Shown piece by piece: positions 5,284-14,384 of a DNA stretch of 20,432 nucleotides (positions within the stretch are counted from its first letter, which is position 1; each line of letters starts with the position of its first letter). The translations under genes and the position numbers were made by a program. Location: IMG/VR virus record IMGVR_UViG_3300022854_000015, positions 1 to 20,432 of that record; one strand, written 5' to 3'. A model generated the notes under the pieces. The model was not told the origin of the DNA. It was given only the letters and a program-made list of their open reading frames with translations, and made no database searches. Source of the DNA: a virus.

Positions 5284-7393
5284 TAGTTCCCCCCCCTGTA
5301 TTGTTTTGAGCACCCATTAATATTCTACTCGCACCATTCAGGATAGAATTTTCAAAGGCTGGAATAAGTGTTTCGGTTACAAACTGCTCTGAACCAATAA
5401 CATCACCGCTGATGTTTACAGATATAGAGGCCGGGGCAGGAGCCGAAAGACTACCGCTGTCATTAAAACCGCCAGCACCACCAACCCCTAATTGCCCCCC
5501 CCCACTAAAGCCGCCTTGGAGTGAATCAACCCCGGTGCCAGCTGCCCTTAACGTTGTTGCCGCTGCATAGACGGCTGTGGCTCCTGCGATACTTGCCGCC
5601 GCAGATAACCCAAGTGATGCCGCCGCCATCGCCGCCGCCATATCCCAATAAGCTGATGCCGCAATAGTTGCTGATGCCGCTTGCGCTGCGTTTGAAGTCG
5701 ATGCAACAACACCCGCCGCCGCCAATGCCAAAGTTGCCGCCACTTGTGAGGTGAGGACTGTTGTAGCCGTTACAGTGGTAGCTATATATTCAACAAGGGC
5801 TTTGATCGCGATACCAACGAGGCTTTTCACTATTGAAATCCCGATCTCTTTAAATGCTTTTTTCATTACATCTTTCAGAGATTTCATATTGGTTAAAGTA
5901 GCTACAAAGAAATCTTGCAATAATCGGGTTGTTGAGCCGACAACGATTTCCCATTTTCTTAGCCAATCCTCTGAAACCTGTTCCTGAACTCGGGCTGATA
6001 AGTCAGCCATTTCCTGATTGAACAATTCCTCAGATTCCAATAATAATTGGTGAGTTAGTTCAGCATCAACTAGCTTTGACTCTCCAATAAGTCTGCGGCG
6101 TTCAGCGGCCTCTTGTTCGAGAATCTCCAACTCATACTCATAATCTGACATCATGGCCAGCCTAACCTCGTTGGTCTGCTGGATCAGTTCTGTTCTTGCT
6201 TCATTAACTCTTTCCGCCGCACTAACTACCCTTGCCATATGTTCCTCTAGTAGCTTTTCATCTTCCTTCATATCGTCCTGGTCTATAAAGGATATTGATG
6301 GCAGTTGTTGTGTAACCAATTTAGTAAGCTCAATATTCTCTGCGATGATTTCACCTAACCGTTCCGCCTTGGTTTTTTGTTCCTCAAGTCTGTCATTTGC
6401 GTTCTTAACAGCGGGGTCAAGTCTCTCTTGAGCTATTGCCCATTGGTTAGTATTATCGCCGACAACCCCGGTCAAGTCAGTGAAGGCCATAAAGTCATTT
6501 AATGCTAAGTCAGGGGCACCGATATTTTTCAAAGCCTCTTTGAAATCTTCAATGGAAATTAAACCCTCACCAAGGCTTTTCATTAGCTCGTTAATTTCAT
6601 CTGTCCAGAGTGAAGTTGCCTCTGCCGTGTTAGTCAATTCGGTCTCTGCCCCAGAGAGGAAATCAGATAATGTCTCAAAAGCATCTAAGACATCAGCCGC
6701 AACCCCAACTATTGCAATAAAGGATTCAAGGACTGCCTCAAGGGCTGGCTGTAATAGTCTAAATATATCCTCTTTCAGATCTCCTATCCGTTCGCTCAAT
6801 ACTTCCATTCTAACAGCAAAAGAGCCAGCAACATCTTGAGCCGCTCCACCAAACTTTTGATTGATCTGTTCAATAGCCGCCGCAAACTTTTCATTTTTTG
6901 GGATAGCTTCATCAATGATAATACCATATCGGGACAGCGTGCCTGTATAACCAACCTGGGCTTTCGATATCAAATCAACCGCTGATTCAAGAGATATACC
7001 AGAACCGACAGCCAGATCAGTTGCTACTTTCATGGATTCTTTAGCATCATCTATTGACGCACCAAAATCAACAAACCTCTGGATTCCCTTGGCAACAACT
7101 TCATCAGAAACACCTGTCAATGTCTGCATTTCATCAGCAAACTTTCTGATCTTTGCTATCCCTGAATCAACCTCGATGTTGTGCCTCTTGAGTGATCCGG
7201 CCACAGCAAGCCATTGCTTTTCACTCTCTGCCCCAACTTGTGTAATATCTACCAGGACATCAAGACCAATCTTGAGGGCGGCGATGGCGGCGGCAACTGC
7301 GGCTATATTCTTAACTGCCCCCTGAAAAGCCGCTGATGATTTATCTTTTGCATTGATGATAATATTAACGTTCTTGGTTGTGGTATCACCCAT
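5270..7393 (-). CDS. Tail tape measure protein
   Basis: A 707-residue protein with the composition of a tape measure: long helical, Ala-rich and coiled stretches. The N-terminal part (NVNIIINAKDKSSAAFQGAV) is like the start of many phage tape measures that have a 'KDKASA' type element. Residues about 100-210 contain the helical VSDEVVAKGIQRFVDFG and SAVDLISKAQVG region seen in many phage tape measures. Residues about 360-490 are strongly charged coiled coil (EEQKTKAERLGEII; EYELEILEQEAAERRR). Residues about 515-620 are hydrophobic and Ala-rich, then a Gly-rich stretch (GGFSGGGQLGVGGAGGF). The start ATG 7393 overlaps the frameshifted chaperone by eight bases, the usual G/GT-tape measure arrangement. 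At about 0.15 nm per residue it would set a tail near 105 nm; that is inference. Confidence 0.88.
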   Translation of the reverse strand: MGDTTTKNVNIIINAKDKSSAAFQGAVKNIAAVAAAIAALKIGLDVLVDITQVGAESEKQWLAVAGSLKRHNIEVDSGIAKIRKFADEMQTLTGVSDEVVAKGIQRFVDFGASIDDAKESMKVATDLAVGSGISLESAVDLISKAQVGYTGTLSRYGIIIDEAIPKNEKFAAAIEQINQKFGGAAQDVAGSFAVRMEVLSERIGDLKEDIFRLLQPALEAVLESFIAIVGVAADVLDAFETLSDFLSGAETELTNTAEATSLWTDEINELMKSLGEGLISIEDFKEALKNIGAPDLALNDFMAFTDLTGVVGDNTNQWAIAQERLDPAVKNANDRLEEQKTKAERLGEIIAENIELTKLVTQQLPSISFIDQDDMKEDEKLLEEHMARVVSAAERVNEARTELIQQTNEVRLAMMSDYEYELEILEQEAAERRRLIGESKLVDAELTHQLLLESEELFNQEMADLSARVQEQVSEDWLRKWEIVVGSTTRLLQDFFVATLTNMKSLKDVMKKAFKEIGISIVKSLVGIAIKALVEYIATTVTATTVLTSQVAATLALAAAGVVASTSNAAQAASATIAASAYWDMAAAMAAASLGLSAAASIAGATAVYAAATTLRAAGTGVDSLQGGFSGGGQLGVGGAGGFNDSGSLSAPAPASISVNISGDVIGSEQFVTETLIPAFENSILNGASRILMGAQNNTGGGTIAFA

Positions 7394-7814
7394 TTATTCC
7401 AACTTTCGATTTGTGGCAAAGATCAAGTTCTAAGGCTATGATATCGCAAGCATCAACCCAAATGTTTGGCAGATCAAAATATTCATCGGGTGTTCTGATT
7501 CTCCGATATCCATCAGTTGAGTTGTAAAGTCTGATCAGCATATTATATTCTGTTTCTACTATCCCATAAGGGCAAACGTTAAACTGTTTAAGACAGTTTA
7601 CAATTGGTGATTTCTTTTTGTCTGGTTCTGATTTTTGCACATACTCGACGATATCCCACCATGAATCTTTGGTAACTGTTAGGGTCTTGACTCCCGGCCA
7701 TACAGCCTCTAAAGATTCGGAACCTTTTGTGAAGCATTGGGTGAATCCTTTACCGATCCCGCAGTCTTCGTGACTTCCGCTGCCGAGGACTGCGATGCCG
7801 ACAGCGAGCCGGAG
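7386..7814 (-). CDS. Tail assembly chaperone, downstream (gpT-like) part made by -1 frameshift
   Basis: This frame is open from just upstream of base 7814 to the stop at 7386 and is read after a -1 slip at 7814-7820, giving a fusion of 105 + 142 = 247 residues with the upstream chaperone. Its early part overlaps the end of the upstream frame (to 7709). After that it is protein-like without overlap, for example DSWWDIVEYVQKSEPDKKK, NVCPYGIVETEYNMLIRLY and YFDLPNIWVDACDIIALELD. An in-frame GTG at 7640 exists but has no convincing ribosome-binding sequence. In lambda-like phages the G and GT products bind tape measure and tube protein and are absent from the virion. The position directly before the tape measure gene supports the same role. 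Confidence 0.8.
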   Translation of the reverse strand, partial: LRLAVGIAVLGSGSHEDCGIGKGFTQCFTKGSESLEAVWPGVKTLTVTKDSWWDIVEYVQKSEPDKKKSPIVNCLKQFNVCPYGIVETEYNMLIRLYNSTDGYRRIRTPDEYFDLPNIWVDACDIIALELDLCHKSKVGING

Positions 7815-8128
7815 TTTTTTACTTGATCGTCAGAAAACTTGCTGATCCTCATTAACTGGTTTATCAAGTCCAAAATATCTGGCAGATAAAGATTGTCAGC
7901 TAAATATTCAGCCGTAATCTCTTCATCAATACCTTGGAGCTTTAGAACGTTATCGGCAAATATAGTTGTCATTATGAGTGGATCAATTTCCTTGGCAGTC
8001 AGTATATCCATTTTGGTCAACTTTATAAATGCGCCAGCTTTCATTGGGGTTAAGGTTGCTATAGCTTTGTGCTTGCCAATCTCAACCTCTACTGGCTCCC
8101 TTGATACTGTTGGAAATACATTCTTCAT
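7709..8128 (-). CDS. Tail assembly chaperone (gpG-like)
   Basis: A 139-residue protein between tail tube and tape measure genes, the standard place of the tail assembly chaperone. The N-terminus is beta-rich (VSREPVEVEIGKHKAIATL) and is followed by helical segments (AGAFIKLTKMDI, EEITAEYLADNLYLPDILDLINQL), as usual for gpG-like proteins. The C-terminus is low-complexity, rich in Ser, Ala and Lys (SASQSSAAEVTKTAGS), which probably reflects the constraint of coding in two frames plus RNA structure. ATG 8128 lies 18 bases after the tail tube stop and follows GGGTGA. Most ribosomes would make this short form; a fraction would slip at 7814-7820 and make the long form. Confidence 0.8.
   Translation of the reverse strand: MKNVFPTVSREPVEVEIGKHKAIATLTPMKAGAFIKLTKMDILTAKEIDPLIMTTIFADNVLKLQGIDEEITAEYLADNLYLPDILDLINQLMRISKFSDDQVKNSGSLSASQSSAAEVTKTAGSVKDSPNASQKVPNL
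7761..7820 (-). promoter_or_regulatory. Programmed -1 ribosomal frameshift site: slippery heptamer plus H-type pseudoknot
   Basis: On the minus strand the zero frame reads GTA AAA AAC, so A-AAA-AAC (7820-7814) is a canonical X-XXY-YYZ slippery site. A six-base spacer TCCGGC (7813-7808) follows. Stem 1 is TCGCTGTCG (7807-7799) with CGGCAGCGG (7785-7777), nine pairs including two G-U. The loop holds GCAGTC (7793-7788), which pairs perfectly with GACTGC (7766-7761), six pairs, forming stem 2. Loops are GCATC (5), CT (2) and ten bases. The -1 frame stays open to 7386. This pairing was worked out by eye; folding energy was not computed. Confidence 0.8.
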
Positions 8129-11659: not shown

Positions 11660-13825
11660 TTAGTTCGCCGCATCTACATTATAAATTGCATTGATGAAAC
11701 ACTCAGTTGACGATGGAGTGAAATTAGGTTGGAAATCATAACGAGCATAACCAACAACATTATAACCGTAGTTATGGATATCTCTCTCGGTTAGAATCTC
11801 GACATCTTTACGTTCAGCAACGCTAAACATATCAGTGCGAACAGGCATCATCATTGTCCGGGTGTTACCGGATGCAGAATAGATACCAGTGGCATCAAGA
11901 TCATCTGCGATTTGAGACATTGGAACAATTGGTGAGCCAAAGATTTTGGCAAGTTCACCAATTGCAACAACAGCATTTGGGCCGTACTTATCCATTGTCA
12001 TAACTTCTGGCATTTCGTCAGCACTGAGCAGGCGGAGCAAGTAACCCTGAACAGAGGTGAGCCAAGCAAGTTGATTCGGTTTTAAACCATACTTGCCCAT
12101 CTGTCCCCTGCATTGAGTCATAACATTTGCACTGAAAGTTCCACCATCAATACCTTTTACATCACCAGCAGAGCCAGCATTGATTATTTGGAACCAGAGA
12201 TATCTCAAACCAGAAAAGGCTCTTTGCCTGTGTGTGGCGGCTCGGGTATAACCAGAATCAAGGGCGGCATCAGAAAAGGCGCTTGAACCATTGGAATTGA
12301 TAATCGCATCATTCAATGTTCGGGCGGCACCTCTGGCCATCTTGTCCCGGGCATGAGGCATGATTGCAATAATAGAATCCTCTGTCTCTTCACCGGAAAT
12401 AAAGTAACGACCTTTGAATTTCTTAGCCGTAAATGTCATGTTGCCAGTGAGTATGTCCTGTTCATCTGAATTCACAGATGATGGGACTGTGGTTGTTTCA
12501 GGGCACAAGTCCCAATAGGTGTCAGCCCCCTCTTGTGGAACAGTCAAAGTTTTGTTGACCATCGGGACAAACGGAGCAAACAAAGCCGCAACATTAGCCT
12601 CTGCTCTTACGATTTCTAACAGCTTGCCAGACCAACCCGCCGGAACCCATTCAGTACCTTGGCCCGATGCAGAAGTTGCCATCGATTTAGCAAAGTCATT
12701 GAATTCATTCCAGATTGGCAGGCTCTTCATCCTGATATCTTTTGGCTGTCTGTGGTAGTCACCGCCAACGGATTCTGACTGTCCACTTTTGTAACGATCA
12801 AGCCAAACCAAAGCATCTTGCTTTTCCTGCAATGTGATAAGGTTATCGGCCTGACTTGCGCCAAGGCTCCCCTTCAATTCACCGGGGGTATGCTGTAGCA
12901 AAGACTTGATCCGGTCGGGACTAAACGACAGGCCAGGAACAGCCACAGTTTTGTTTTTCTTGACCGCTTTGACTTCATCAGAAAGATCAGTCATCTTTTT
13001 AACAAAGTCGGCTGTGATGTTATCCATCAGGGTTTTTGTGTCGGCCTCTGTCATTGTCTTATCGGTCAACTGTTTCATTTGTGATTGGAACTGTGCCGCA
13101 TCGACAAACTTTGTCCCAAGCTCCGCAACAGTCACCTCTGTTTGTTTTTTCATTGCATCAGCAATTTGGCTGTCTACAACTTCTTTGGTAACTTCCATAT
13201 CCTTAACCTTTCGTTTGCTCTTTTGAGCTGAAAAATATTTCAATGTCAAATTATGTTCTTTTGCGTGGTTCAGCAGATCAGCGTTTTTAATCTGCTCAAC
13301 TGTTTCGATAGTTGCGCCAGAGTGTCCGGGCGATGGCACTAGGGATGTTTCTATCAATTCCTGTTTGTGGAAATGATATCCGCCATCCTCAATTAGTGAA
13401 TATTCGAGAGCATTAAATCCAACAGAATATGACCTATAAACACCAGCCCGAATGAGCAGGGCGGCATCTTCACCTTGCTTTGTTCCATAGATTACATTTC
13501 TGCCATAAAGCCCCTCTTTACGTATTTCGATATCTGTCCAAATACCAAGTAACATGGCACCCCAGCTATGATGGAACATGAACACAGGATATTTGAGAAA
13601 GTCGTCCAAAACCCAACCAGCAGGATCAATGATATCATCCATTCTGTCCATGCTACCCTTAGACATCCAGCCTCGAGTTGACAGGATTGGCTTGATAGAT
13701 TTATCAGCCCAGCCCGGAGTGATGGAAACAAATTTTTCCTGAATGATATCCATATCGGCTTTGACAGGGGTGCCTATATCTTCAATCCCGCCGATTACGT
13801 GCCTTGTGTTGAGTTTTTGAATCAT
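11660..13825 (-). CDS. Prohead protease fused to major capsid protein
   Basis: A 721-residue protein that joins two head functions. Residues about 25-190 are an HK97 gp4-like prohead protease: FMFHHSWG (candidate catalytic His85/His86), YRSYSVGF (candidate Ser134, in the usual S-V-G-F setting) and ETSLVPSPGHSGA, typical of this family. Residues about 210-295 are a Lys/Glu/Asp-rich coiled coil like the scaffolding delta domain of HK97 gp5. From about residue 300 onward it is an HK97-fold major capsid protein, with AGWSGKLLEIVRAEANVAALF, KKFKGRYFISGEETEDS, an ARDKMARGAARTLNDAI helix, and a C-terminal IHNYGYNVVGYARYDF strand. An internal ATG at 13198 (residue 210) has good ribosome-binding sequence, so free capsid protein may also be made. 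It starts one base after the previous stop. Confidence 0.85.
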   Translation of the reverse strand: MIQKLNTRHVIGGIEDIGTPVKADMDIIQEKFVSITPGWADKSIKPILSTRGWMSKGSMDRMDDIIDPAGWVLDDFLKYPVFMFHHSWGAMLLGIWTDIEIRKEGLYGRNVIYGTKQGEDAALLIRAGVYRSYSVGFNALEYSLIEDGGYHFHKQELIETSLVPSPGHSGATIETVEQIKNADLLNHAKEHNLTLKYFSAQKSKRKVKDMEVTKEVVDSQIADAMKKQTEVTVAELGTKFVDAAQFQSQMKQLTDKTMTEADTKTLMDNITADFVKKMTDLSDEVKAVKKNKTVAVPGLSFSPDRIKSLLQHTPGELKGSLGASQADNLITLQEKQDALVWLDRYKSGQSESVGGDYHRQPKDIRMKSLPIWNEFNDFAKSMATSASGQGTEWVPAGWSGKLLEIVRAEANVAALFAPFVPMVNKTLTVPQEGADTYWDLCPETTTVPSSVNSDEQDILTGNMTFTAKKFKGRYFISGEETEDSIIAIMPHARDKMARGAARTLNDAIINSNGSSAFSDAALDSGYTRAATHRQRAFSGLRYLWFQIINAGSAGDVKGIDGGTFSANVMTQCRGQMGKYGLKPNQLAWLTSVQGYLLRLLSADEMPEVMTMDKYGPNAVVAIGELAKIFGSPIVPMSQIADDLDATGIYSASGNTRTMMMPVRTDMFSVAERKDVEILTERDIHNYGYNVVGYARYDFQPNFTPSSTECFINAIYNVDAAN
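13196..13215 (-). promoter_or_regulatory. Internal ribosome-binding site and in-frame start for capsid part
   Basis: On the minus strand GAAAGGTTAAGGAT stands directly before an in-frame ATG (13198, Met210 of the fusion). AAAGG sits eight bases upstream of the ATG. The product, 512 residues, would begin with the delta-like coiled coil (MEVTKEVVDSQIADAMKK) and lack the protease. This is the exact domain boundary, right after a basic linker (QKSKRKVKD). Use as a start is inferred. Confidence 0.5.
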
Positions 13826-13826
13826 C

Positions 13827-14384
13827 TTACTTGGCGTACATTTTAAGTTTAATTTTCAGCGGCAACAGGCTGTCAATGATATTTGTATCTTCAACCGTTG
13901 TTATAAGCCGGACATAGGTGTAATCCCATAAGACCGAATCAGTTAAATTAAAGGCCACATAATCAGAATTTGCGATAGCATTATGTTTAGGTATGGCAGT
14001 AATCTTGTTAGAATAAAGCAATTTGCTTGGTGTCCCGCCAGCCGCCGCAGTTAAGATTTGAACCCAGACAGTATCTTGAGTTGAGTCAATTACACCAGTG
14101 GCCCCCGGAATACTATCATAAGAAACAACATAATATCCATGTACTGTACTATACCGATCAACAGCATCAAACTTGAACAACAGACTTGATGAATTGTTAT
14201 AGGTTGTCAATGAATCAGGGCCAGATGCAGTTGACGAATCAGGCATTTCAAATTTCCACCTGAAAGTATTTTCCATCTTGGCAGGCGTGGGCCTGTCTGC
14301 TACGGCCTGATCAGGGGTTAGCATAACACTCATAAACACAAGGATTATAACTGTTATTGTTCCGAGTAAAATTAGTCTTTTCAT
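13827..14384 (-). CDS. Secreted beta-rich protein in the head gene block, unknown function
   Basis: A 185-residue protein with ATG 14384 placed eight bases after a strong AAGGAG. Residues 1-29 form a typical signal peptide (MKRLILLGTITVIILVFMSV..., likely cut after AVA). The mature part of about 156 residues has predicted beta strands and many Ser, Thr and Asp (SSSLLFKFDAVDRY; HGYYVVSYDSI; DTVWVQILTAAAGG; DYVAFNLTDSVLWDYTYVRL). It looks like a small beta-sandwich. It lies between portal and protease-capsid, where other phages place head decoration or scaffold genes, yet the signal peptide predicts export. Options are a moron that changes the cell surface, an exported decoration protein, or a retained N-terminal membrane anchor. 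I do not recognise the family. It stops one base before the next start. Confidence 0.75.
   Translation of the reverse strand: MKRLILLGTITVIILVFMSVMLTPDQAVADRPTPAKMENTFRWKFEMPDSSTASGPDSLTTYNNSSSLLFKFDAVDRYSTVHGYYVVSYDSIPGATGVIDSTQDTVWVQILTAAAGGTPSKLLYSNKITAIPKHNAIANSDYVAFNLTDSVLWDYTYVRLITTVEDTNIIDSLLPLKIKLKMYAK

Follow-up and report, generated by a model that had tools for sequence, protein, structure and literature searches.

The tail operon and its frames

The window, that is, the whole stretch of DNA analyzed here, is a 20,432-base IMG/VR record (IMGVR_UViG_3300022854_000015) from an uncultivated phage with very few kin. Its tail genes are encoded on the minus strand in the 5' to 3' order tail tube, G, an open -1 frame (hereafter, T) and tape measure (Table 1). 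G and T are a pair of open reading frames lying between the tail tube and tape measure genes, the second at -1 relative to the first and without a start of its own near the junction: the first start codon in the T frame is a GTG at codon 60, and there is also an ATG at codon 93. As the preliminary description of this DNA had stated, the -1 frame remains open until 8 nt past the tape measure start, with its stop ending at 7386 inside the ORF that begins at 7393. A shift at the heptamer described below would join 105 codons of G to the 142 codons that start from CTC, giving a fusion of the proposed length of 247 residues.

Recognizable similarity of the G product to known proteins is limited to a weak profile match to PHROG 508, 'tail assembly chaperone' (E 0.011). 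Pfam gave no match for G, and AlphaFold modelled G and T with confidence too low for use (pLDDT 43 and 39). Because the profile match is weak and the structure models are unusable, we name G a putative tail assembly chaperone mainly from its position and the frameshift.

Relatives of this phage proved scarce. Exact peptide patterns from G and from the tail tube, tail-tip, portal and capsid proteins retrieved no close relatives from IMG/VR; DNA and protein searches of a phage collection with the G/T region, the tail tube and tail-tip proteins and the tape measure N-terminus gave no match; and the tail proteins were without a detectable match among 50,697 phage records. Portal and terminase scans yielded distant loci only, except for IMGVR_UViG_3300022707_000476 (L070), the only near relative found, which came from the terminase scan, and two more distant fragments, L068 and L069, both of which end before gene G.

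Table 1. Features of the G/T junction and the adjoining tail genes, arranged 5' to 3' along the minus strand of the window
Feature	Position	Strand	Basis or remark
Tail tube (major tail) protein, 343 aa	8147..9178	-	PHROG 290, E 5.7e-10; Pfam Phage_tube_2, E 2.3e-4 (below the curated cut-off)
Gene G, putative zero-frame tail assembly chaperone, 139 aa	7709..8128	-	ORF; position; weak PHROG 508 match; likeness to L070 G
Slippery heptamer A_AAA_AAC	7814..7820	-	In phase; conserved in L070 at 12923
T domain, -1 frame after the predicted shift, 142 codons from CTC plus stop	7386..7814	-	
Spacer UCCGGC, 6 nt	7808..7813	-	
Predicted pseudoknot stem 1, 5' arm UCGCUGUCGG	7798..7807	-	Kept in L070, one compensatory change
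Loop 1, 2 nt	7796..7797	-	
Predicted pseudoknot stem 2, 5' arm UCGCAGUC	7788..7795	-	
Unpaired single C between stems	7787..7787	-	
Predicted pseudoknot stem 1, 3' arm UCGGCAGCGG	7777..7786	-	
Loop 3 AAGUCACGAA, 10 nt, crosses stem 1	7767..7776	-	
Predicted pseudoknot stem 2, 3' arm GACUGCGG	7759..7766	-	
Tail tape measure protein, 707 aa	5270..7393	-	PHROG 167, E 1.9e-8; N-terminus 78% identical to L070

A slippery heptamer followed by a potential pseudoknot

Within G, 102 nt before its stop, the zero-frame codons GTA AAA AAC place an A_AAA_AAC heptamer in the X_XXY_YYZ phase that is correct for tandem slippage. Downstream, after a spacer of 6 nt, inside the 5–9 nt range of such elements, two stems can form, with loops of 2, 1 and 10 nt that are able to span them, which is the topology of an H-type pseudoknot. 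Stem 1 (UCGCUGUCGG/UCGGCAGCGG) comprises 10 pairs, of which 7 are Watson-Crick and 3 are G.U, and stem 2 (UCGCAGUC/GACUGCGG) comprises 8 pairs, 7 Watson-Crick and 1 U.G. The preliminary description was right about the phase of the heptamer and the six-base spacer, and both of the stems that it proposed are present, but its counts of nine pairs in stem 1 and a perfect six in stem 2 have to be revised, and the element, which it placed at 7761–7820, runs on to 7759. In Rfam, the element belongs to no family.

To rank this structure, we used a score made up of the stacking sum and simple loop terms, which is not a full pseudoknot energy. When every position of both strands is tried with a 6-nt spacer (about 40,700 placements), the window knot comes first by stacking energy, and its stacking energy was reached by none of 40,000 dinucleotide shuffles, none of 40,000 zero-frame-synonymous recodings and none of 30,000 T-frame-synonymous recodings. 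When stem 1 was kept in place, 29 of 20,000 shuffles equalled stem 2. Folded in the usual nested way, this stretch is unexceptional (z -0.83), and what stands out is therefore the knot topology specifically. The knot has competitors in nested folds at about -18 to -20 kcal/mol; given that stems 1 and 2 sum to about -34 before the knot penalty, which we estimate at roughly 8–10, the knot should be preferred over them by some kcal/mol.

Conservation of the arrangement in a near relative

L070 and the window are 61% identical in terminase, 59% in portal, 59% in tail tube and 78% in the tape measure N-terminus, with lower values for the T frame (42–43%) and G (34–35%); their DNA is roughly 65–75% identical where it can be aligned. 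The gene order is the same, AAAAAAC is found in phase, and T is again in the -1 frame, although G of L070 stops much sooner past the heptamer than does G of the window. Conservation of the arrangement is read here from this one near relative, with distant loci contributing candidate sites.

The T-frame proteins of both phages begin with KKLRLAVG, eight identical residues located exactly at the heptamer. This most conserved part of the T frame lies far upstream of any start codon, the first of which is at codon 67 in L070. Over the 35 codons of the overlap, substitutions fall 10, 7 and 22 times on T-frame codon positions 1, 2 and 3, respectively. The KKLRLAVG identity, the third-position bias and the late start codons together indicate that T-frame translation sets in at the heptamer, for which a shift at that site is needed.

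Conservation of the two stems differs. In L070, 9 of the 10 pairs of stem 1 are kept, the exception being the innermost G.U, and one pair shows a compensatory change (U-A in the window, C-G in L070); the stacking energy of this stem in L070 is -21.4 kcal/mol. For stem 2, four of the eight pairs are unchanged, one, isolated, is changed on both sides, and three are broken, and no replacement for stem 2 in L070 does better than chance (p about 0.25 for the best). The pair counts for the window and L070, a comparison of two sequences only, do not exceed those of shuffles, 134 of 500 of which score as high. Both frames of the overlap are coding, and almost none of its positions is doubly silent; since nearly every base is under this double coding, the conservation of stem 1 may in part reflect protein constraint. 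The claim of a full pseudoknot is therefore borne out strongly by the sequence of the window, whereas in L070 only stem 1 is clearly retained; of the covariation proposed as a check on the claim, the two sequences show a single compensatory pair in stem 1 and, in stem 2, one isolated pair changed on both sides along with the three broken ones.

Structures at other candidate G/T sites

We compared the window with candidate G/T sites in the fetched loci, 24 in all, which were picked by rule and include sites where frameshifting is unproven. At most of them a pseudoknot is either lacking or no better than in shuffles, so that the description of a full knot as a minority case holds in this sample. 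Four of the sites (those of the window, L070, L015 and L005) were matched by at most 5 of 4,000 shuffles; L070 and L015 reach that rank mainly through stem 1, and at L005, where the site is poly-U, the loop is 33 nt long.

At the candidate site of L015 (position 18025; Syntrophobacterales MAG), AAAAAAC is followed after 7 nt by a perfect 12-pair hairpin, for which a possible knot partner (stem 2) was not significant. In three contigs of one MAG (L019:7587 and L020:6228, both from Ignavibacteriales, and L081:1740-1960), a candidate U_UUU_UUN precedes the tape measure gene and is followed by conserved pairing of the GAAUCCC/GGGAUUC type that could form a long stem-loop or a pseudoknot. The pseudoknots suspected in L019 and L020 are explained equally well by a long nested stem and were set aside. 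In Paenibacillus species and a Paenibacillaceae MAG (L028, L029, L030, L033, L037 and L038), the candidate tail-chaperone sites have AAAAAAC about 27–30 nt ahead of the G stop, with similar sequence after it; L036 has AAAAAAA in that place.

Interpretation and alternative explanations

We interpret the locus, with considerable confidence, as a lambda G/GT-type programmed -1 frameshift of a long-tailed phage tail operon, stimulated at a downstream structure. That the heptamer directs a -1 frameshift yielding the 247-residue GT fusion is very likely, in agreement with the preliminary description, which had the element joining the tail chaperone frames: the L070 layout, the heptamer, the conservation of T and the absence of a nearby start all point to it. 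Stem 1 is likely to act as the stimulator, and the balance tilts somewhat toward the full pseudoknot working on the ribosome. The heptamer, its phase, a structure potential beyond chance, the arrangement in L070 and the T-frame conservation are the supporting observations; folding of the RNA as a pseudoknot on the ribosome, the shift efficiency and the chaperone function are what we infer from them.

Under this interpretation, most ribosomes would read G to its stop and produce the 139-residue chaperone. A minority would pause at the structure 6 bases downstream with tRNA-Lys and tRNA-Asn on AAA AAC; both tRNAs would then slip back by one base to pair with AAA AAA, and reading on in the T frame would give the 247-residue GT. 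Together, GT and G would cover the tape measure protein and bring in subunits of the tail tube, in a GT:G ratio that would be set by the efficiency of the shift.

Three accounts that dispense with ribosomal frameshifting were weighed and rejected. The least probable of them, to the point of being negligible, is that an indel from sequencing or assembly has broken the frame of a single real gene: such an error would be conceivable at a six-A homopolymer in a metagenome contig, but the frame relation, the heptamer and stem 1 recur in L070, which is a distinct and divergent contig, and this excludes it. Transcriptional slippage on the A run, restoring the T frame in the mRNA instead of at the ribosome, is also very improbable. 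The six consecutive A's are what suggests it, yet runs that support such slippage usually need about 8–9 bases, and it leaves unexplained why a knot should lie downstream at canonical spacing. Production of T as a separate protein, by internal initiation or by reinitiation after G, would find possible starts in the GTG and ATG of the T frame, but the position of these codons far downstream of the conservation peak at the heptamer, together with the difference in first start codon between the window and L070, makes it highly unlikely.

The nature of the stimulator is a closer matter. If the -1 shift is real but stem 1 works as a hairpin alone, with stem 2 fortuitous or minor, then L070, where stem 1 persists with its compensatory pair, stem 2 is broken and the substitute is not significant, would look as expected, as would L015 with its AAAAAAC, long stem and non-significant partner. 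What makes this reading doubtful, although possible, is the window itself, in which so few shuffles match stem 2 given stem 1 and in which no other placement along the contig betters the whole knot. Less probable still, and offered tentatively, is that the downstream element differs in topology between relatives, being a full pseudoknot in the window and mainly a hairpin in L070, so that the heptamer and stem 1 would be fixed and the GT:G ratio would be adjusted solely through stem 2 being gained or lost. The window and L070 make up a natural pair for asking what stem 2 contributes.

Relation to known frameshift sites

According to the excerpts of PMC5009743, -1 shifting at G/GT is common among long-tailed phages, and it fixes the proportion of the two chaperones, about 30:1 in lambda. 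One test of two fs-genes from a phage tail assembly chaperone cluster gave shifts of 6% and 7% (PMC3711429). The window shares with lambda two frames between the tail tube and tape measure genes, a -1 shift (predicted in the window) and a slippery heptamer late in the first frame; it differs in having A_AAA_AAC as the heptamer, at its distance of 102 nt from the G stop, and in its strong predicted pseudoknot downstream, which is not described for lambda in those excerpts (PMC5009743). Listeria phage PSA also has a stimulatory 3' pseudoknot in a structural gene but, unlike the window, undergoes a +1 shift on a proline codon, in the capsid gene (PMC5009743, same excerpts).

The closest parallel in structure is corynephage phi16, for which the excerpts of PMC5506516 predict both a -1 shift within the tail assembly genes and an H-type pseudoknot downstream of it, as in the window, whereas the slippery sequence is GGGGGAA, accompanied by an internal Shine-Dalgarno sequence, and the case is one of prediction only. 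Since an H-type pseudoknot has thus already been predicted at a phage tail-assembly -1 site, the knot of the window is less notable than the preliminary description claimed (PMC5506516, same excerpts). Outside phages, -1 shifting on A_AAA_AAC has been proven in bacteria for an insertion sequence cluster (IS1), there without an established stimulator, and IS3 family sites are stimulated by downstream structures, which links both to the window; their sites, however, are in transposase genes (PMC4066793). The general picture of G/GT frameshifting is unchanged by the window site, which adds a well-defined, testable candidate for pseudoknot-stimulated tail-chaperone frameshifting in an uncultivated phage.

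Bacillus phage Silence (KT001912) resembles the window in its head-to-tail gene order and in the joined G/GT 'tape measure chaperone' frames annotated before its tape measure gene, but it has CCCAAAG at the G stop and no significant pseudoknot. HH comparison of the window G with G of Silence and G of L020 found no detectable similarity.

In the head gene cluster of the window, a 721-aa ORF (11660-13825, minus strand) has an N-terminal match to prohead protease profiles and, beyond it, matches to those of major head proteins, so that the protease and capsid protein appear to be fused; the L070 counterpart has 715 aa. Between the portal and capsid genes (13827-14384, minus strand) lies a gene for a protein with a signal-peptide-like N-terminus, unusual in a head gene cluster, and a similar protein is encoded at 6047-6613 in L070.
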